Shown here piece by piece: positions 436-12,485 of a DNA stretch of 12,485 bases. This DNA is from a bacterium (lineage in GTDB: Bacteria > CSSED10-310 > JAJRTK01). The notes beneath the pieces are model-generated. The model worked only from the letters and a program-made list of their open reading frames with translations. It was not told the DNA's origin and ran no database searches. Position 1 is the first letter of the stretch. Each line of letters starts with the position of its first letter. The position numbers and the translations under genes are program-made. Location of the stretch: the NCBI GenBank assembly GCA_024278345.1, contig JAJRTK010000186.1, forward strand, positions 1 to 12,485, read 5' to 3'.

Positions 436-489
436 GCCGGAATGGCCTAGTGTCGGGATTTGACCTTCTCTGGACCTGGTGGGCGAAGC

Positions 490-3400
490 ATGGCGACCAA
501 CGGAGAAAAGCAGGAAGCAGACCGGGATTCCAGGTCGGCGTCAGAAGTGAAGCAGCCTGCTTCCAGCCTGTCCACCCAAGACGAGTTACACAGTCCGGAG
601 TTCGGAGAGGCTACCGGCGACCCCGTGGATGCTTTACCGCCGCCAAGGGAAGCTGCGCCACCGGATACCCACACGCCACGGGGCGGGCCCGACGAAACCA
701 TCGACCTTCGGGATTCCGACTCCACCACGCCGTCAAGCCTTGTATCTCCCGACGGGGCAAGGCCGATTCCCGTTGCGGAAGGAGTCTTTCGTCGAGGTGA
801 TCGGGTAGCGAATCGCTACCAGATCATTCGGTTCATCGCCCACGGTGGAGTGGGCGAGGTCTACGAGGCCCTGGATCTGGAGCTCAATCTACGAGTGGCG
901 CTCAAGACGATACGCCCTGAGCAGACCGAGACCCCCAAGATTGCGGAGCGTTTCCGGCGAGAAATCCAACTGGCAAGGAAGGTCACGCATCACAACGTTT
1001 GTCGCATCTTCGATTTCGGACGTCATCAGGCGGTGAGACAAGGGGCGGCGGAGGCCAGATCCATCCTCTTCTTGACCATGGAGTACCTGGAAGGCGAAAC
1101 ACTCTCCCACCGGCTCCGGCGAAACGGGGCACTAGCACCGGCAGAAGCCCTTCCCTTGGTGCGCCAGATGGTCAAGGCGCTCCAGGCCGCCCACGCCGTG
1201 GGAGTCATCCACCGGGACTTCAAAAGCAGCAATATCATGCTGGTGCCCTCGGCCGACGGGCAATCCGTTCCACGCCTGGTAGTCACGGACTTTGGACTGG
1301 CCAGAGCGGCATCCGGCAAGGACTCGGGGGCATCGTTCACCGGTACGGGTGGAATAGTAGGGACGCCGCTATACATGGCGCCGGAGCAGGTAGAGGGCCA
1401 GCCCACCACTCCGGTGACGGATCTCTTCGCTTTGGGCGTTGTCATGTTCGAAATGGTGACGGGCCATTTCCCGTTTACCGGAGAGTCCGCCCTCTCCACG
1501 GCGGTGCGGCGATTGCGGGAAAAGGCGCCGTCGCCGCGGATCTACACCCGGGACTTGGACCGGCAATGGGAGAAAACCATCCTTCGGTGCCTGGAGAAAA
1601 ATCCCCACAACCGTTTCGCCCGAGCAGAAGACGTGACCCGAGCACTGGAGGGCGATTCTGTCCGCCCGCCTTGGCCGGTGATTCGGTGGCGGCTCCTTGT
1701 GGCAACCCTCGTCATCTTAGTTGGGGCCGGCATCTGGAAATCGGCCGACACCTGGCTAAGAACAAAATCCGCCACGGAGACGAGCGCTTCCTCCACCACC
1801 CGGCGCACTCTGGCACTCTTCGGTTTCAAGAACCTCTCGGGACGACCCGAAAGCGACTGGATCTCCACGGCGCTGTCGGAGATGTTGGCCATGGAGATCT
1901 CCGCCGCCAAGGACCTCCGAGCGGTTCCCGGGGAGACCGTGGCCCGGGCCAAATTGGAGCTCGAACTTCCCGAAGCCGACGCCTATGCCTTGGATACTCT
2001 GGTACGCATCGGAAAAAACCTGGGCGCCGAATTGGTGGTCCTGGGCTCCTATCTGGCTAGCCGCCCCGAAGCCGGTGGCCGAGTTCGCCTGAACCTGCGC
2101 GTGCAAAGCACACGGACCGGAGAATCCGTGGTCCTTGTCTCCCTGGACGGAACCGAGGCGGGCTTGCTGGATTTGGTCTCGGAGGCGGGAAACAAGCTGC
2201 GGCGGGTCCTTGGAGTGGGCACGATCTCGCCCGCCGAGGCCGCCGCCATCCGGCTGGCGTTTCCCTCGGACGCCGAAGCAACCAAACTTTACGCTCAGGG
2301 CCTGAAACGCCTCCGACACTCCGACGCCCTCGAAGCCCGCGATCTCTTGGAAAAATCCGTTGCCGCGGATCCGGGAAACGCTCTGGCCCATGCGGCGCTG
2401 GCCGAAGCCTGGGCGGCCCTGGGACAGAGCCGCCGCTCCGAAAAAGAAGCTCGGCTGGCCTATGAACTCTCCTCGCAACTCATCGGACACCAGCGCCTCT
2501 GGGTCGAAGCGCGCTACCGCGAAGCAGCGGGAAACTGGAACGAAGCGGAAGAACTCTACCGAATGCTCTGGCAAACCTTCCCCGACGACCTGGAGTATGG
2601 GCTCCATCTGGCCAATGTGCAGATCGCAAGTGGCAATGGCCCCAAGGCCCTCCAGACCATCCACACCATTCAAGAGCAGGCGGGAAAAGGGCATGCCGAC
2701 CCAAGACTCGATCTGGCCGCGGCGCGGGCCTACTATGCCAAGGGCGATTTTGAACGGCAGCGGCAGGCAGCCGCGAAAGCAGTCCGGAAGGGACTGGCCA
2801 TCGAAGCTCAACTGCTGGTGGCACAAGCCCGCCGCCTGGAAGGCCTTGCTCTCCTCCCCCTGGGTCAACCCATGCAGGCACTAGAAAGCCTAAAAAAGGC
2901 CAAAGAAATTGCCGACGCCGCGGGGGACCGGCAACTGGCGGCCCAAGCCACCGAAGACATGGCCCGGGTCCACTGGAACCATGGCGATCTCCGAAAAGCT
3001 CTGGCCCTGTCGCGCCAAGCCCTGGGCACCTTCCAGGAAGAACAGAACATCCGGAGCATGACCTCGGCGCTCACCTTGATCTCCAGTTGCCTGGATCGGC
3101 TGGGACAGACTCAAGAAGCCACCGCCGCGGCAAAGAAATCACTGCGGCTGGCCGAAAAGCTCGACGACCTCGCCGCCGTGATTCGCGCTCAGAACAATCT
3201 GGCCGAGTTCTCACTCTGGCAAGGAAAGCTCTCCGAGGCCGAAAGCCGCTACCGCAAGATCCTGGAACTCTCGAGAAAGATCGGCTCTAAAACCGGAAGG
3301 GCGGCGGCGTTGTTGAACATGGCCATCGTGGCCCTGGAACGTGGCCAACCACGGAGAGGAACCGAAATCGCGCAACAAGCCCTGGAGGCCTTCACCGCCA

Positions 3401-4179
3401 TGCAGTTCCAACGGGGGATCGCCTGGTGTCTCTCCGAGCTGGGCCGCGCCGCCCTGGACCAAGGGCAACTCAAAGAAGCCCAAGAGAAACTCCACCAGGC
3501 TTTCAGGCTCTGCCGCGTTTACGACCTGCGCCACACCATCGGCTACGTTCTCAACAATCTGGGGAGACTGGCCCTGGTGCAAGGAGATCTGGAGACCGCC
3601 GAACGCCGCTTCCAGGAGGCCCTGAAGGAAGATCGCACACCGGAAGTGAACGCAGCCGCGAGCCAACTCGGCCTGGCCAAAGTCTACCTGGAACTCGGCG
3701 ACCTCGAAAAAAGTCGCGCACTGGCCAAAAAGAGCTTGGCCACGTTCCAAAAACGGGCCAGCCCCGGCCAACAAGCCCTGGCGCAAGTCATTCTGGCCCG
3801 CTCCTTCCTTGCACTGGGGGACCTCGCTCAAGCAGCGGCACACTCCAACCGGGCGCAAGCGTTGGCCAAGGGTCTGGAGACTCGAGGCGTCTCCTTCGAT
3901 GTCGAGTTGCTCAATCTCCGCCTGCAGGCCGCGAAAACCAACGCCAGGTCAAGGACGGGCCAGATTCGACGCCGCCTCGAGAAGCTGGAGAAACGCGCCA
4001 AGGAAGCCCATCTGGCCAAGTTCCGGTTTGCGGCGGCCATCGAGCTGGCAAGGCTGGCCATGACGGCAGGAGAATCGGCCCGCGGCCTGGAAATCCTGGA
4101 AAAAATCGACCGAGAGGCCCGGGCCTTGGGAATGGGGCTCGTTTCCCGATGGGTCGATGAGCTCCGAAATGGAAAATGA
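490..4179 (+). CDS. Transmembrane Ser/Thr protein kinase with TolB-like domain and long TPR array
   Basis: About 1229 residues. The first 100 look disordered (Pro, Asp, Ser rich). The Hanks-type kinase domain spans about 110-385: glycine loop AHGGVG (117-122, first Gly replaced by Ala), Lys139 in VALK, helix-C Glu158, HRDFKSSN (241-248, RD type), DFG (267-269), APE (297-299) and Asp311. A membrane helix at about 400-417 puts the remainder outside the cytoplasm. Residues 439-585 resemble the TolB N-terminal/FlgO-like domain of bacterial kinase and cyclase sensors (GFKNLSG near its start). From about 598 to the end there are TPRs, many with a roughly 40-residue period. The kinase should phosphorylate Ser/Thr of cytoplasmic targets in response to an envelope signal; ligand and substrates are unknown. 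ATG 490 is chosen because GGTGGG lies 6 nt upstream; an in-frame TTG at 460 would add ten residues. It is monocistronic here, convergent with the next gene. Confidence 0.93.
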   Translation: MATNGEKQEADRDSRSASEVKQPASSLSTQDELHSPEFGEATGDPVDALPPPREAAPPDTHTPRGGPDETIDLRDSDSTTPSSLVSPDGARPIPVAEGVFRRGDRVANRYQIIRFIAHGGVGEVYEALDLELNLRVALKTIRPEQTETPKIAERFRREIQLARKVTHHNVCRIFDFGRHQAVRQGAAEARSILFLTMEYLEGETLSHRLRRNGALAPAEALPLVRQMVKALQAAHAVGVIHRDFKSSNIMLVPSADGQSVPRLVVTDFGLARAASGKDSGASFTGTGGIVGTPLYMAPEQVEGQPTTPVTDLFALGVVMFEMVTGHFPFTGESALSTAVRRLREKAPSPRIYTRDLDRQWEKTILRCLEKNPHNRFARAEDVTRALEGDSVRPPWPVIRWRLLVATLVILVGAGIWKSADTWLRTKSATETSASSTTRRTLALFGFKNLSGRPESDWISTALSEMLAMEISAAKDLRAVPGETVARAKLELELPEADAYALDTLVRIGKNLGAELVVLGSYLASRPEAGGRVRLNLRVQSTRTGESVVLVSLDGTEAGLLDLVSEAGNKLRRVLGVGTISPAEAAAIRLAFPSDAEATKLYAQGLKRLRHSDALEARDLLEKSVAADPGNALAHAALAEAWAALGQSRRSEKEARLAYELSSQLIGHQRLWVEARYREAAGNWNEAEELYRMLWQTFPDDLEYGLHLANVQIASGNGPKALQTIHTIQEQAGKGHADPRLDLAAARAYYAKGDFERQRQAAAKAVRKGLAIEAQLLVAQARRLEGLALLPLGQPMQALESLKKAKEIADAAGDRQLAAQATEDMARVHWNHGDLRKALALSRQALGTFQEEQNIRSMTSALTLISSCLDRLGQTQEATAAAKKSLRLAEKLDDLAAVIRAQNNLAEFSLWQGKLSEAESRYRKILELSRKIGSKTGRAAALLNMAIVALERGQPRRGTEIAQQALEAFTAMQFQRGIAWCLSELGRAALDQGQLKEAQEKLHQAFRLCRVYDLRHTIGYVLNNLGRLALVQGDLETAERRFQEALKEDRTPEVNAAASQLGLAKVYLELGDLEKSRALAKKSLATFQKRASPGQQALAQVILARSFLALGDLAQAAAHSNRAQALAKGLETRGVSFDVELLNLRLQAAKTNARSRTGQIRRRLEKLEKRAKEAHLAKFRFAAAIELARLAMTAGESARGLEILEKIDREARALGMGLVSRWVDELRNGK

Positions 4180-4264: not shown

Positions 4265-6001
4265 CTAAAGATCATCCCCCCGAGAACCGCTACCGAAGGC
4301 CGGCCAGAGCAGGATCATGGGAAAAGCTAGCAGTAGAAGGGCCACGGTCTGCCAACCCGCTGGCGAACCCGCCATCGGCGGAACAACGAAGATCGCGCTG
4401 GCGACGGTCCTTTGGGGCTGAGGCTCCGTGATCTCAGGATCGTAAGTTGGGCCTAGCGGAATCACCTGAGCCCCGTTGACCACGAGGACGAAGTATTGGC
4501 CCGGCGCCACCGAAAGGGGGTCCGCACCAGCCTGACATGCGCCTCCGGGACCTACGGAGAAAGTAACGTCGAGGCGATAAGCCTCCGGCGCGGGATCGAG
4601 ATCGGCCAAAAGCGAGGGGCTGGCGCTGGAGCAAAGGACGCGATCCACGGCCCGGGGATGGTTTGAATAGACGGTGAGCCGGACGATCTCCGGACCTCCG
4701 GTATTGGCTGGAGACATCTTCGCGCTCTCCAGGAGGTTCTGGACCTGGAGGCGAAAAGTCACGGGCTCACTTCCGGCCACGGGGAGCTCGCCCCCTACGG
4801 GAACCGGCAACGCTTGGGCCTGCACCTCGAAAAGAAGGCGCAGATTGGCGTCAGCATCCTCGGTGACGAAGGTTCGGTGGGAAAGAATGGCCTCGGCGAC
4901 GGATTCCCGGGTAAGATCGGCGTCGAAGGCGGCCCGGCGGCCATTTTTCCAACGATCCGCGGTTCCATCGCTGTCCGGCACGAGGTAACCGGTGAACTGG
5001 TCGGATCCACTCTCGCCTGGAGACGCGGATGAGAAGGGCTTCCAGCGCTGATCTCCATGCTCGGTATGCCCCGTTTCATAGTCCTTCTGATGGGTGTCAT
5101 GGGAGCCGTCAACGCCCACGCGGAAACCGGCATCCAGGGCCCGAAGATACTCGTCAAGCTCGCCAAAAACGGCGGAAGGATCGTCAGAAAACGTGGGAAT
5201 CCCCGTGGTCACTTCAATGGAAGCAAGTCCTGGCGGTGAGCCCGTCACCGGCAAGTCCCACTGCCGCTCCAAGCAATCATAAAGGCTCGGACCCGTGCAG
5301 TTTTCCTCAAGATCCCGCTTTGAATAGGGAAGAAGGCTGAAGCGGGAGCGCTCCCGATCCGGGTGGCTGGTCGTCGGCGCGGAAAAGAAGTCCGGATGGT
5401 TCACCTGGGCGAAAGCCAAACGTCCCAATGGATTGGACGAACCCGCCCGCTGCCCGGCCACCTGGCTCAGGAAGTCGAGCCAAACGTTATCGATGTCTTC
5501 CGGAAAAAAAACGGACTCCGGGAAGAAGACCGAAAGGTGCTCCTGGCTTCGCGTCGTATATTCGAAGCCGTAAAAGGCCAGGAACCGGCCAGGATCGTTA
5601 GCGGCGTCGGCCTGGGGCATCAAATAATTCCGATACTGGTCGGTGTCGGAATTGGGGTGCGTCCCTGGATCAGACCTTTCTCCCGGCCCCAAGGGGGTCA
5701 TCTCGCTGTCTTTGGGAATGACGCCAGTGGAAGGCATCCCATCGGGCACGAGCCAGGTGCGGGGATAGACGTGCTCGGAAATGCCATAGACCTGGACACG
5801 CCCATTGGAACGTGCCTCCTGATAAGCTGCATCGGGAAGTTGCGGCAACTCGCTCTCTGAAAAAGCGGCGTGATTGTGGAGGTCGCCCAAAAAAATGTCG
5901 AACTCCGCAAGCTCCGCGGCCAGAAGAGACGCAGGCAAAAGAAGGAAGACCAGACCGAGGAAAAGATCTTTCAGACCCAACAAGAGGTTTTTCGGCACCA
6001 C
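4265..6001 (-). CDS. Exported PHP-domain (DUF3604-like) phosphoesterase-like protein
   Basis: About 578 residues from GTG 6001. A hydrophobic signal peptide covers residues 1-29, ending ASLLAA. The body resembles PHP metal-dependent phosphoesterases of the DUF3604 kind: GDLHNH (39-44) opens it, ISEH is at 74-77, GFE has Glu147, HLSV has His155, NHPD has His202, IEV has Glu263 and GVDGSHDTH supplies Asp298, His301 and His304. These are plausible ligands for the metal cluster typical of the family. A beta-rich C-terminal region follows, and a hydrophobic helix at about 550-568 is followed by a short polar tail, so the product is probably held at the membrane facing outward. The substrate is unknown; DUF3604 members are poorly characterised. 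An in-frame GTG at 6091 would add 30 polar residues before the signal, but AGGAG with 6-nt spacing favours 6001. Transcribed divergently from the kinase cluster, with no evident functional link. Confidence 0.85.
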   Translation of the reverse strand: MVPKNLLLGLKDLFLGLVFLLLPASLLAAELAEFDIFLGDLHNHAAFSESELPQLPDAAYQEARSNGRVQVYGISEHVYPRTWLVPDGMPSTGVIPKDSEMTPLGPGERSDPGTHPNSDTDQYRNYLMPQADAANDPGRFLAFYGFEYTTRSQEHLSVFFPESVFFPEDIDNVWLDFLSQVAGQRAGSSNPLGRLAFAQVNHPDFFSAPTTSHPDRERSRFSLLPYSKRDLEENCTGPSLYDCLERQWDLPVTGSPPGLASIEVTTGIPTFSDDPSAVFGELDEYLRALDAGFRVGVDGSHDTHQKDYETGHTEHGDQRWKPFSSASPGESGSDQFTGYLVPDSDGTADRWKNGRRAAFDADLTRESVAEAILSHRTFVTEDADANLRLLFEVQAQALPVPVGGELPVAGSEPVTFRLQVQNLLESAKMSPANTGGPEIVRLTVYSNHPRAVDRVLCSSASPSLLADLDPAPEAYRLDVTFSVGPGGACQAGADPLSVAPGQYFVLVVNGAQVIPLGPTYDPEITEPQPQRTVASAIFVVPPMAGSPAGWQTVALLLLAFPMILLWPAFGSGSRGDDL

Positions 6002-6012
6002 GGGAATCTCCT
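5999..6012 (-). promoter_or_regulatory. Ribosome binding site deciding the GTG start of the PHP protein
   Basis: On the minus strand AGGAG (6012-6008) is followed by ATTCCC and then GTG (6001-5999). A second GTG comes directly after. The upstream GTG at 6091 has only AGGG three bases away. The downstream start also places the signal peptide at the extreme N terminus. Confidence 0.7.
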
Positions 6013-6412
6013 GATTCAATCGTCGTATCACGCCTGGCAACCCAAAAAGAACAAGTCCGCGTTTCTTGGTAGTGGGCTGCTTCCAGGGCACAATCCCTGA
6101 AGACTGCTTTTTTGGTTGAGGTCCGGTCGGGTCGGCGGCAATCCGTCCGCCTCCCCTCCCCTCTCATCGCCCTCCAACCGGTCTCAAGACCCTCAAGGCG
6201 GCCTGAAACCCGAAAGCACCGGTTCACCGGTTCCTTGGAACGACGGAAACCCGCCGCCAGCTTTGACACCGGCACCTCCGACTTTCTAGGCTGAATCTTG
6301 ATGCCCGAATTTTTTCGACACCGACGCTACAATATCCTGTCATCAAGAAGGAAACTTGACCAGCGAGAAACACTCAAGCATACCGGAAGTCAATATCCTC
6401 GGCGATTTTACT

Positions 6413-6420
6413 TCCGGACG
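6413..6420. repeat. Target-site duplication, left copy
   Basis: TCCGGACG directly precedes the left inverted repeat of the miniature element and is repeated exactly at 6575-6582 directly after the right one. Confidence 0.85.
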
Positions 6421-6574
6421 GGGACCTATCAAATCCACACGATTCTGCTTTACAGTCCGCACTGCCGCACCGGTGGCACCGGCATCTTGCCGGTGGCGGG
6501 CCGGTCGGGATTCACGAACTTGAACGGTGGGTTCGTTTCGGGCGTGAACTTGTCAACCGGATCTGATAGGTCCC
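6421..6574 (+). mobile_element. Miniature inverted-repeat transposable element (MITE), complete copy
   Basis: The left end GGGACCTATCAAATCC (6421-6436) is the reverse complement of the right end GGATCTGATAGGTCCC (6559-6574) with one mismatch in 16. The octamer TCCGGACG abuts both ends (6413-6420 and 6575-6582), giving an 8-bp target duplication. The 154-bp element has no transposase. Its interior contains a hairpin, CACCGGC-ATCTT-GCCGGTG (6477-6495), and another with stems ACGAAC/GTTCGT (6514-6519, 6531-6536). Movement would need a transposase acting in trans that recognises GGGACCTAT ends. An 8-bp duplication occurs in several insertion sequence families, so I do not assign one. Confidence 0.88.
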
Positions 6575-6582
6575 TCCGGACG
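6575..6582. repeat. Target-site duplication, right copy
   Basis: TCCGGACG directly follows the right inverted repeat of the miniature element and matches 6413-6420 exactly. The undiverged duplication suggests a fairly recent insertion. Confidence 0.85.
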
Positions 6583-6768: not shown

Positions 6769-7284
6769 ATGACTGATAGCCACCTATCCCCAACGCCCTG
6801 GGACCTCGAACGTCTGGAGGCCGCGTGGGCGAATGTTCTGGAACACTGGAACGACCTTGACCAGCACAATGCCTTCGTCCACCTGGCCGACGAGGTCAAT
6901 CTTTTGGATATCGCCGCCAAGCGGTACGCCGAAGAACGCGGCAAAAGGCCGGACGACGAATTCGTCCGCAAAATGGCCACACAAATCGTCTTCCGGGCCC
7001 AGTTCCGCCTCCGAAAAAAGGACAAAGAAGATTCTGACGGCGATCTTGAGAAAAGAGTCAAACGGCTTCTGCTGGTGGCCGCCATCGTCCTCATCCCTCT
7101 GATCCTCCTCTGGGTGGTCTTTTCCCAATTCGGCAACCGGCTGGAAGAGATGCTCGTAACCTCGCCAACCCCCGTAGCCAAGAAACTGGCGTCGCCGACT
7201 CCCATCTCCGCGGAGCGGGTCTTCCCAACGCCATCTTCCGAGGCTGCCCCGGCGGCGGAAAAGTTCGCGCCTGCGCCGCCGTAG
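6769..7284 (+). CDS. Small single-pass membrane protein of unknown function
   Basis: 171 residues from ATG 6769, with AAGGA (6759-6763) 5 nt upstream and AAGGAG at 6751-6756. I do not recognise the family. Residues 1-98 are hydrophilic, mainly helical and rich in charge, with a Trp-rich start (Trp11, Trp20, Trp27). A basic stretch (KRVKR) precedes one strong membrane helix at about 100-119. The tail is a Pro/Ala/Ser-rich linker with three PTP motifs. By the positive-inside rule, the N-terminal domain is cytoplasmic and the tail lies outside. It starts the plus-strand cluster ending in a kinase, separated from the next gene by 260 bp. It may belong to the same envelope signalling unit, but shared transcription is not shown. 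Confidence 0.8.
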   Translation: MTDSHLSPTPWDLERLEAAWANVLEHWNDLDQHNAFVHLADEVNLLDIAAKRYAEERGKRPDDEFVRKMATQIVFRAQFRLRKKDKEDSDGDLEKRVKRLLLVAAIVLIPLILLWVVFSQFGNRLEEMLVTSPTPVAKKLASPTPISAERVFPTPSSEAAPAAEKFAPAPP

Positions 7285-8914: not shown

Positions 8915-8929
8915 GGAGGGCGATAGGTG
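8915..8929 (+). promoter_or_regulatory. Ribosome binding site deciding the GTG start of the second kinase
   Basis: GGAGG (8915-8919) is 7 nt before GTG 8927, and there is no upstream in-frame start with a comparable site. The 30-bp gap after the preceding stop leaves little room for a separate promoter. Confidence 0.7.
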
Positions 8930-11900
8930 GCGGATGGCGAAGAGAAAAAGCTGACGCTCGACGATTTGGCCGCCGGCGTGCGGATCGGGGGCCGTTACGA
9001 TCTCAAGAGGGAGTTGGGCACTGGTGGCTTCGGGAAGGTTTTCCTTGTTCGGGATGGCGAGCTGGAGGAAGATATTGCCCTCAAGTTTTTGAGGCCCGAG
9101 CATGTCCGGGACGAAACCCAACTGGCTCGTTTCAAGCGGGAAGTGCTGCTTGCCCGGAGGATTTCCCACCCCAACGTCTGCAAGATATTCGATCTTGGGC
9201 GGGCGAACGGGCTGGTTTATCTTTCGATGGAGTACATCGAGGGAGAAGAACTCCACGGCATCACGAGGCGGATGGGTCCTCTTGCTCCTCGAACAGGCCT
9301 CAAGATCTGCTTTCAGATTTGCGACGGCTTGGAGGCCGCCCATCGGGAGAAGATCGTTCATCGGGATCTCAAACCCACCAACGTGATGCTCGATACCTCC
9401 GGAAGAGTGAAGTTGATGGACTTCGGTATCTCCAAGGCCACGGATATGGGGGGACTGACGGCTACGGGATCGCTGGTGGGGACACCGAAGTACATCGCGC
9501 CTGAGCAGTGTCGCGGGAAAGTGGGCGACCACCGAAGTGATCTCTACTCTCTGGGCGTCATGATGTACGAGCTTTTCACCAATGTACCGCCTTTCCAATC
9601 CAACACACCGATGGGGGTCCTCTTCAAGCACGTGGAGGAACTGCCGCGGCCCCCCATGGACCTGGCCCCCAGTCTTCCAGCCTCTATCAATACCTTGATC
9701 CTTCGGTGCCTGGAGAAACGACCGGAAGATCGCTACCAGTCGGCGGGTGAAATTGCCGCGGAAATCACCCGTATTCTGGCGAACACCTTGGAACCGGGGG
9801 AGAAGGTTGGAGAACCACTTTTGGGTACCGCCATCCAAGTTTCTCCGTCAAGCAATCATGACTCGTCCCAGGGGAAGCCAACTCTCAAGAAAATGACGGC
9901 TCCCTTGGTGCCAGCCGTGGAGACTCCGACAAAAAAGCAGGGAGCGACTCCCGTCTCCGCTCGGGAAGAGCTGCCGGCCCAAGGAAGCCACGTCCCACCG
10001 GCCGCGGTGACCAAGGGAACGCTGGAGATGCCTGCTGGATCTTGTCCCACCAGCGCCACTGTCGCCCTCGTGGAGACCGAACCAAAGACAAAAGCAACCG
10101 TGCTGCTGCCCGGTTTGGCTCTCGCGTATACCGATTGCGACACAAAAGAAAAGGCATCGCCAAAGGTATCTTTGGGCAAAAAAACCTCTTCGATACCCCT
10201 GGCCACAAGAAGGAAAACGAAGAACCACAGGGTGCGTCGAACCAAGAGACGATCCGCCAAGAGCGCAGACAAGCGAAGGGGCATGGAAAAACCCAAGAGA
10301 GGCGGATTGCTCAAACCCGCCCTTCTTATTCTCTTCCTGGGGTCGGCGTTCTGGTTTTTTTTACCGAGAGGCGAACTCCCACAAGTCGGTCCCGGGAAAT
10401 CGGGCAAAGAATCTGGCCTGGCAGGAGTCCGGAAACAGGTTTCCCTGGAGTCCTCCGAGGCAGGGGCACATGTTTCGAAAGAGCCCCAGAAACAGCCCAC
10501 GGCCCCGACCTCAAAAGTCCCGAGGGATGGCGCACGCCAGGAAGGGGCTCAGGAACAGCCTCTCCCCGAGCCGGCCGAGATCCGGGCACAGGCTTCCATG
10601 GAGGCTGAGAAACAGGTTTCCCTGGAGTCCCCGGAGGCAGGGGCGCCTATGCCGCAAGAGCCGCGGAAGCAGCCCACGGCCCCGACCTCAAAAGTCCCGA
10701 CGGGTGGCGTGCGTCGGGAAGAGGCTCGGGAGCAGTCTTCCGCAACAGCGTCAGAGACCGCGAGGCATGGCAGGCGCCTGAAAGAGGCACTCCAAAGAGC
10801 CCGCCGCTTCTTGGAGGAAGGACGCCTCGTCGATGCTTCCAAACCTGACGATGCTTTGCGGGCTGCCCGCCGTCTCCTGACCATCGAGCCGGGAAATCCG
10901 GAGGCGACAGCGATCCTGTCCAGGATTGCCAGCCATTATCGGAGAATCGGCCTGGAGGCGATGAAAAAGAAAGATTTTCCCGCGGCTGTCGGCGCGTTCC
11001 GGCAGGGCATCCAAGCAGTTCCCGGTGACTCGGCTCTTCAAGAAAGCCTGGATCTGGCAATTCGACAATGGGAGAAAACCACGGCCACTCGCCAACTCCT
11101 GGCCGAAGTAGATACCGCTCTTAAGAACTACGACGGTGAAACCGCTCTCAGGCTCCTGAAGCAGCAATTGGAGGATTCGCCCCACGATGAGAAAGCGTTG
11201 CGGATGGAGGCATCGGCCAAGGGGATACTTCGGGCACGGGCGGATCTCACAACGGCCACCCGCTACACAGAGGCTTGGGATCTGGAAAAAGCCGCCGCGA
11301 TGTTGGAGCTTCTCCTGGAAAAATATGGCGAATGGCCGGAGATGGTACAAGCAGACCGGGAACTCACCAGGCGGCAAGAAGCGGAAACTGCTCTTGACGA
11401 GGCCGGGAGGTTCTTGGCGGCGGCGCAACTGGACGAAGCGGCGTTGCGACTGAATGCCACCGCGCGGGATTTCCCCAACCATCCACGGCTCGCCGCCTTG
11501 CGGGAAAGATACAACAGGCAGGTCCAAGTGGCCGATCTATTGGATGCAGCCAACAAGCTTCTTCGGGGGGGCCAGTTCCATGAGGCATCGCGGAAGATTG
11601 CCGCCGCCGCACAGCTAGAACCCGAAGATCCGAAGATCAAATCGATGGAGGAGGAGCTTCAGCACGCACAACGCCGTGCGGCGGCTCGTGCGGCGGCGGC
11701 CAAGAAAAAGCAGCGGGCGCAAGAGGCCGAAAGACGACGAAAGCAGCAGTACGACGCGGCGTTTTCTAGGGCAAAAAAGGCGCTTGCTTCCGGCGACCGT
11801 AAATCGGCGGGATCGTTTCTTCGGAAGGCGGAACGCCTGGCCAGGACCCGGGCTGAGGCATCGCGGATCCAAAAACTGCGGAACCGTTTGGAAGAAGAAA

Positions 11901-12331
11901 ACACGGTTTCTTTTGGGCGACTGAAGCTTCGAATTCGCCCATGGGCCGTAGTCTTCATCGACGGTAAGAAGATCGGAAATACCCCCATCCCTCCGCAAGA
12001 ACTGTCACCTGGCAAACATACGGTTTTGCTGGAAAACAAGGACACGGCCACGCGCTTGGAAAGGCAGGTGTTGATTCGGGCGGGCGAAGAAGTGCTCCTA
12101 GAGCTGGAGCTCTCTACCGGTACCTTGGTGGTGGAGACGAATCCCACGGCCTGGGCGACCCTGAGAATACCCGGCGAATCCAAGCCTCTGGATTTGGGAA
12201 AGACGCCGGTCAACCGCCAAGTGCCGGCAGGCGTGGATCTGCAGCTTCGCCTCATCATCGGCGACCGAACCCACACCTTCAAAGTCCGGGTGCCAGGCGG
12301 CGGACAAGTTCGTGTTCAAAAAGATCTGTAG
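8927..12331 (+). CDS. Transmembrane Ser/Thr protein kinase with helical repeats and C-terminal PEGA-like domains
   Basis: 1134 residues from GTG 8927. The N-terminal Hanks-type kinase spans about 22-285, with all key residues: GTGGFG (31-36), Lys53, Glu72, HRDLKPTN (145-152), DFG (165-167), APE (191-193) and Asp205. The activation loop has several Thr/Ser before GTPKYIAPE. A low-complexity basic linker (285-460) leads to one membrane helix (464-480). Outside are two tandem 59-residue repeats (503-561, 562-620), TPR-like helical repeats (618-905), a charged, probably coiled-coil stretch (906-990) and two beta-rich PEGA-like domains (about 995-1062 and 1063-1134; the first has VFIDGKKIGNTPI and LSPGKHTV). 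PEGA domains are often envelope-located, so an envelope-sensing receptor kinase is the likely role. It is the last gene of the cluster. The first PEGA unit is more convincing than the second. Substrates are unknown. Confidence 0.93.
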   Translation: MADGEEKKLTLDDLAAGVRIGGRYDLKRELGTGGFGKVFLVRDGELEEDIALKFLRPEHVRDETQLARFKREVLLARRISHPNVCKIFDLGRANGLVYLSMEYIEGEELHGITRRMGPLAPRTGLKICFQICDGLEAAHREKIVHRDLKPTNVMLDTSGRVKLMDFGISKATDMGGLTATGSLVGTPKYIAPEQCRGKVGDHRSDLYSLGVMMYELFTNVPPFQSNTPMGVLFKHVEELPRPPMDLAPSLPASINTLILRCLEKRPEDRYQSAGEIAAEITRILANTLEPGEKVGEPLLGTAIQVSPSSNHDSSQGKPTLKKMTAPLVPAVETPTKKQGATPVSAREELPAQGSHVPPAAVTKGTLEMPAGSCPTSATVALVETEPKTKATVLLPGLALAYTDCDTKEKASPKVSLGKKTSSIPLATRRKTKNHRVRRTKRRSAKSADKRRGMEKPKRGGLLKPALLILFLGSAFWFFLPRGELPQVGPGKSGKESGLAGVRKQVSLESSEAGAHVSKEPQKQPTAPTSKVPRDGARQEGAQEQPLPEPAEIRAQASMEAEKQVSLESPEAGAPMPQEPRKQPTAPTSKVPTGGVRREEAREQSSATASETARHGRRLKEALQRARRFLEEGRLVDASKPDDALRAARRLLTIEPGNPEATAILSRIASHYRRIGLEAMKKKDFPAAVGAFRQGIQAVPGDSALQESLDLAIRQWEKTTATRQLLAEVDTALKNYDGETALRLLKQQLEDSPHDEKALRMEASAKGILRARADLTTATRYTEAWDLEKAAAMLELLLEKYGEWPEMVQADRELTRRQEAETALDEAGRFLAAAQLDEAALRLNATARDFPNHPRLAALRERYNRQVQVADLLDAANKLLRGGQFHEASRKIAAAAQLEPEDPKIKSMEEELQHAQRRAAARAAAAKKKQRAQEAERRRKQQYDAAFSRAKKALASGDRKSAGSFLRKAERLARTRAEASRIQKLRNRLEEENTVSFGRLKLRIRPWAVVFIDGKKIGNTPIPPQELSPGKHTVLLENKDTATRLERQVLIRAGEEVLLELELSTGTLVVETNPTAWATLRIPGESKPLDLGKTPVNRQVPAGVDLQLRLIIGDRTHTFKVRVPGGGQVRVQKDL
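10433..10786 (+). repeat. Two in-frame 177-bp tandem repeats inside the second kinase gene
   Basis: Two units offset by exactly 177 bp (59 codons) encode matching segments such as KQVSLES, EAGA and QPTAPTSKVP. A run of 31 identical bases occurs at 10493-10523 and 10670-10700. The end of unit 2 is more diverged. A smaller 24-bp echo (CAGGCTTCCATGGAG at 10589, CAGGTTTCCCTGGAG at 10613) crosses the unit boundary. The repeats encode the flexible linker just outside the membrane helix. Confidence 0.85.
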
Positions 12332-12346
12332 CCACCTATCGTCTCA

Positions 12347-12485
12347 GGGACCTATCAGATCCGGTTGACAACATCACCGCTGGGGCGGGCCTCCTTCCCG
12401 GCTCCGTGCAGCCCGGAGGGCGCTACACCGGCAAGATGCCGGTGCCACCGTTTCGGCGAAGAAAATTGTAAAGCAAAAACACGAC
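12347..12485 (-). mobile_element. Second miniature element copy, inverted, cut by the window end
   Basis: It begins with GGGACCTATCAGATCC (12347-12362), 15 bp after the kinase stop. Read on the minus strand, it aligns without gaps to the element at 6421-6574: 91 of the 128 positions from GCTTTACA to the GGTCCC end agree by hand count. The ends, the GCTTTACA block and the central CACCGGC-ATCTT-GCCGGTG hairpin are conserved, while the core differs. By alignment about 15 bp are missing beyond the window. Its position could also affect 3' end formation of the kinase transcript. Confidence 0.85.

Follow-up and report, generated by a model that had tools for sequence, protein, structure and literature searches.

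The window analysed here, a stretch of 12,485 nucleotides, is one contig (C108) of a 6.06-Mb host genome that is 88% complete and spread over 550 contigs. It contains a complete, gene-less element of 154 bp that can be read directly from the sequence at positions 6421-6574. The element ends in inverted arms of 16 nt each, which are complementary at 15 of 16 positions and enclose 122 nt, and the octamer TCCGGACG flanks it on both sides with 8/8 identity. A preliminary description of this DNA had reported a 154-bp element whose 16-bp inverted ends pair with one mismatch and whose 8-bp target duplication is perfect, and every coordinate proved correct. It had also placed the element, itself without a gene, in a divergent region. 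The element indeed has a minus-strand ORF at 4265-6091 (furthest start 6091) on one side and, on the other, a plus-strand ORF that begins at 6769; these frames point apart, and the intergenic region is therefore divergent. Of the kinase cluster named in the same account, the kinases at 460-4179 and 8927-12331 are confirmed. Its 'PHP' label for the minus-strand gene is consistent with a weak match of the protein to CehA/McbA-type metallohydrolases, but this match falls below the curated cut-off and the label is unproven. The features of the locus are as follows.

6405-6432, minus strand: possible hybrid outward promoter-like match, with TTGATA in the left inverted repeat, a 16-nt spacer and TAAAAT in the flank
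6413-6420, no strand: left target-site duplication TCCGGACG, read from the sequence; duplications of the same length occur in 35 of 50 copies
6421-6574, plus strand: complete 154-bp MITE of a divergent 'A' subtype, 137/154 to the subfamily B consensus and 110/154 to that of C
6421-6436, plus strand: left terminal inverted repeat (A-end), GGGACCTATCAAATCC, conserved across copies
6472-6495, plus strand: central palindrome GGTGGCACCGGCATCTTGCCGGTG, common to subfamilies A, B and C in the alignment; inner hairpin in the predicted fold
6559-6574, minus strand: right terminal inverted repeat (G-end), recognised by arm pairing; given as GGATCTGATAGGTCCC for 6559-6574, with the minus-strand reading GGGACCTATCAGATCC
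6575-6582, no strand: right target-site duplication TCCGGACG, read from the sequence
12347-12485, minus strand: second family copy, subfamily C, truncated where the contig stops; it matches the C consensus at 139/139

The element is one member of a large family. Searching the genome with the 154 bp, as the preliminary description had proposed, returned many matches. Genome-wide there are 267 element-like candidates, 40 of which were scored, and all 40 match. The end sequence occurs 313 times with at most one mismatch (169 exact), against 0 for a reversed-pattern control. In 100 sampled contigs totalling 1.04 Mb there were 39 family hits, or 37 per Mb, with a small bias from three stretches that were picked for holding an end. 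Since half of the 313 ends is about 156 and the sample density corresponds to about 226, the host genome carries roughly 150-225 copies. Such repeats break assemblies, and 18 of the 39 sampled hits are broken off at contig ends. Length is uniform, at exactly 154 bp in 42 of 54 full copies. The terminal inverted repeats at the boundary are conserved across the 54, a conservation biased upwards by the partial use of the ends in locating the copies. Nearly all of the single unpaired ends inspected are MITE fragments or chance matches. On contig C142 (L067 2456-2486, C142:2456), an exact 16-bp end is followed by GGATTGACCAC, without the element interior or a partner end; it is either a fragment of a relative not yet characterised or a product of chance.

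The copies split into two subfamilies: B, which includes the diverged A subtype represented by the window copy, and C. Ends, subterminal blocks and the central palindrome are common to both, and two inner stretches differ. Mean divergence from the consensus is 1.4% in B and 1.7% in C, values biased downwards by the exclusion of copies below 140/154. Such low divergence in both subfamilies suggests that amplification of the family, and hence its activity, was recent. A mosaic copy (L069 4727-4880) is C-type at its A-end and B-type at the other, the result either of copies recombining with or converting one another or of a chimeric assembly. A diverged copy on contig C7 (L091 4459-4656) has a partial, tandem duplicate of its own G-end in front of it and belongs to a separate older lineage.

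The preliminary description had interpreted the element as a transposed MITE, a reading that would suffer if other copies had boundaries away from the inverted repeats and lacked 8-bp duplications. Among 50 complete copies with both flanks, exact 8-bp duplications lie at the boundaries in 35 and 7/8 matches in 7 more, and an exact flanking repeat of any other length was found in none of the 50. The duplicated 8-mers display no strong base preference. On contig C533, a B-type copy (153/154) is inserted in a C-type copy. The inner copy has CCGCCCCA on either side, and GATCACCC is duplicated around the outer copy in turn. Once the inner copy and one duplicate are removed, the outer element measures 154 bp and matches the C consensus at 152/154. 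It is thus a natural empty site, and together with the duplications it upholds the claim of transposition.

A de novo scan for stretches of 60-3200 bp with 8-bp flanking repeats and inverted ends of at least 13/16, covering 1.24 Mb of the genome, recovered 25 elements, all of 130-355 bp. Of these, 17 belong to the window family, the window copy included. Because 17 of 25 scan hits are of the same family, and because its ends occur 313 times against none in the control, the window element is not a chance arrangement. At empty sites, 4 of 29 copies fall inside ORFs of at least 300 codons, compared with 74% of random positions. This near-exclusion from genes represents either an insertion preference or selection against gene disruption, the two being indistinguishable here.

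Judged by its structure, the element is a MITE: 154 bp is too short for a transposase gene, and MITEs are recognised as elements of less than 500 bp without one. We consider it very probable (about 0.95) that the family is one of such non-autonomous, IS-derived elements. Its derivation from an IS is read from the anatomy, since no element combining a transposase with the family ends was found, and we infer both the DDE type of the transposase and its supply in trans. Such an enzyme would recognise the ~16-bp ends, probably along with the subterminal blocks TTGTCAACC and TTTTTGCTTTACA, and would insert the element at a staggered cut in the target. Repair of this cut would then leave the 8-bp duplication.

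An intergenic palindromic repeat of the REP/REPIN or ERIC kind, whether maintained or propagated through a Y1 (RAYT) transposase or in the role of a structured RNA, would also exhibit an intergenic bias, a central palindrome, strong predicted folding (for the element, z is -4.7 and -5.5) and inner blocks conserved between subfamilies. However, neither Y1 transposition nor RNA genes are known to produce target duplications. The exact 8-bp duplications at the boundaries of 35 of 50 copies depart from the REP/REPIN pattern, in which there is no duplication, and the nested insertion in C533 is clean. Rfam covariance models gave 0 matches to the window at the gathering threshold, which argues against a structured RNA. 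We therefore regard this explanation as extremely improbable beside a MITE moved in trans. The conserved inner blocks and strong predicted fold nonetheless leave room for a possible host or RNA function besides mobility.

The family is new but of the well-known MITE kind, and copy numbers of this size are already known, for example among Correia and ERIC repeats. Correia elements duplicate TA, whereas the window family duplicates 8 bp, and the two differ in sequence and ends. They are alike as short, gene-less elements with inverted ends, high copy number and promoter-like sequences near genes. In Neisseria, the short and gene-less Correia element, also bounded by inverted ends, exceeds 120 copies per genome (PMC10969869). 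The Chunjie MITE of Geobacter uraniireducens is 178-235 bp long and mostly intergenic, carries conserved inverted as well as direct repeats at its termini and has 38 full copies (PMC10969869). Likened by description, the window family has repeats of these kinds and the intergenic tendency, but Chunjie is variable in length where our family is mostly of one length, and the copy number of the window family is several times higher. ERIC repeats, which number 30 to 711 per genome in Enterobacteriaceae and Vibrionaceae (PMC10969869), are likewise short, intergenic, abundant and palindromic. In contrast to these, the window family is directly marked as transposed by its clear 8-bp target duplication and its nested insertion.

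The preliminary description had further suggested looking for a full insertion sequence with the same ends. None emerged: neither a whole-genome Pfam/NCBIfam search for seven transposase families (ISL3, DDE_Tnp_1, ISAzo13, ISKra4, IS256, IS1595 and IS6) nor the 1.24-Mb scan found a complete, transposase-bearing element with GGGACCTATCARATCC ends, and the scan contained no IS. Transposase remnants do occur, of ISL3 (C5, C395), DDE_Tnp_1/ISAs1-like (C373), ISKra4-like (C17, C481, C464) and IS1595 (C322, C295) type, and the family ends are absent from all of them. IS256, IS6 and ISAzo13 transposases had no match in the genome, the ISAzo13 search being one without a positive control. A multi-copy IS of 1-2 kb could have dropped out of this fragmented assembly, in which the shortest contig seen is 2.5 kb. 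The partner transposase may have died out, may be missing from the binned assembly, or may belong to a family other than those seven.

Mobilisation by an ISL3-family transposase is possible, though we think it unlikely. ISL3 elements have ends beginning with GG and generate 8-bp duplications, the length found here, and the genome retains two ISL3 remnants. Yet both remnants, incomplete and in one case broken by a contig end, are without the family ends, and ISL3 is not singled out when ISKra4-like, IS1595-like and DDE_Tnp_1-type remnants are also present. Improbable, too, is the idea that several MITE families of the host phylum were driven simultaneously by a single transposase, unknown or by now extinct. 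It arises because a recent burst of some 150-225 near-identical MITEs coexists with two other gene-less families that have 8-bp duplications, with no intact partner IS detected.

Insertion might also have had regulatory consequences, with an outward promoter or a terminator altering how the CehA/McbA-like gene or the kinase cluster is expressed. The divergent promoter region would suit such a role. So would the match at the left end of the window copy, where TTGATA and, in the flank, TAAAAT (10/12 matches; shuffles mean 0.2) are directed at the gene at 4265-6091. Across 51 copies, however, 5 outward promoter-like matches are observed where shuffles give 2.7, an excess short of significance (p 0.12), and the other end shows no significant enrichment either (p 0.40). 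A regulatory effect therefore seems improbable, and what is suggested at the window copy is at most a weak, putative hybrid outward promoter.

None of the phylum's seven other genomes contains the end sequence, and the element has no match in 40 other genomes and no copy among plasmids, phages and viral contigs. The ISL3 transposase piece had no match among plasmids either. Against GTDB contigs the end pattern gave 16 single matches, by estimate about the number expected by chance, and only one is a real copy. This is a truncated C-type copy of about 112 bp near the end of a Myxococcota MAG contig, JAJRTE010000302.1 (L175 4931-5042), where horizontal transfer and a binning or assembly error are inseparable. 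The contig also holds two ORFs named by eye, one SNF2-type helicase-like and the other RadC-like. In the literature searched, the end's first 11 bases appear only in unrelated papers. The family documents a high-copy, recently active MITE lineage, its recent activity being judged from divergence, in a small and little-sampled phylum (8 genomes). It is otherwise ordinary mobile-DNA biology, and offers clean targets for studying the rise of gene-less elements to high copy number in bacteria and for tracing the transposase that mobilises them.

Two further gene-less families share the genome. One is 201 bp long, has the ends GGCCTCGGTCATGGTACCGGCCAC and, in intact copies, is flanked by an 8-bp duplication (L072 3100-3300, L089 335-535, L154 225-425); 43 of its ends lie in 1.04 Mb. 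One of its copies interrupts an ISL3 transposase remnant, and others interrupt window-family copies (L034, L053, L074). The third family, which the de novo scan recovered, varies in length from 169 to 355 bp; its ends resemble GGGTATCCACGCAAGGCG and its copies have 8-bp duplications (L127 1204-1469, L110 4011-4179, L161 2808-3162, L192 2437-2692).
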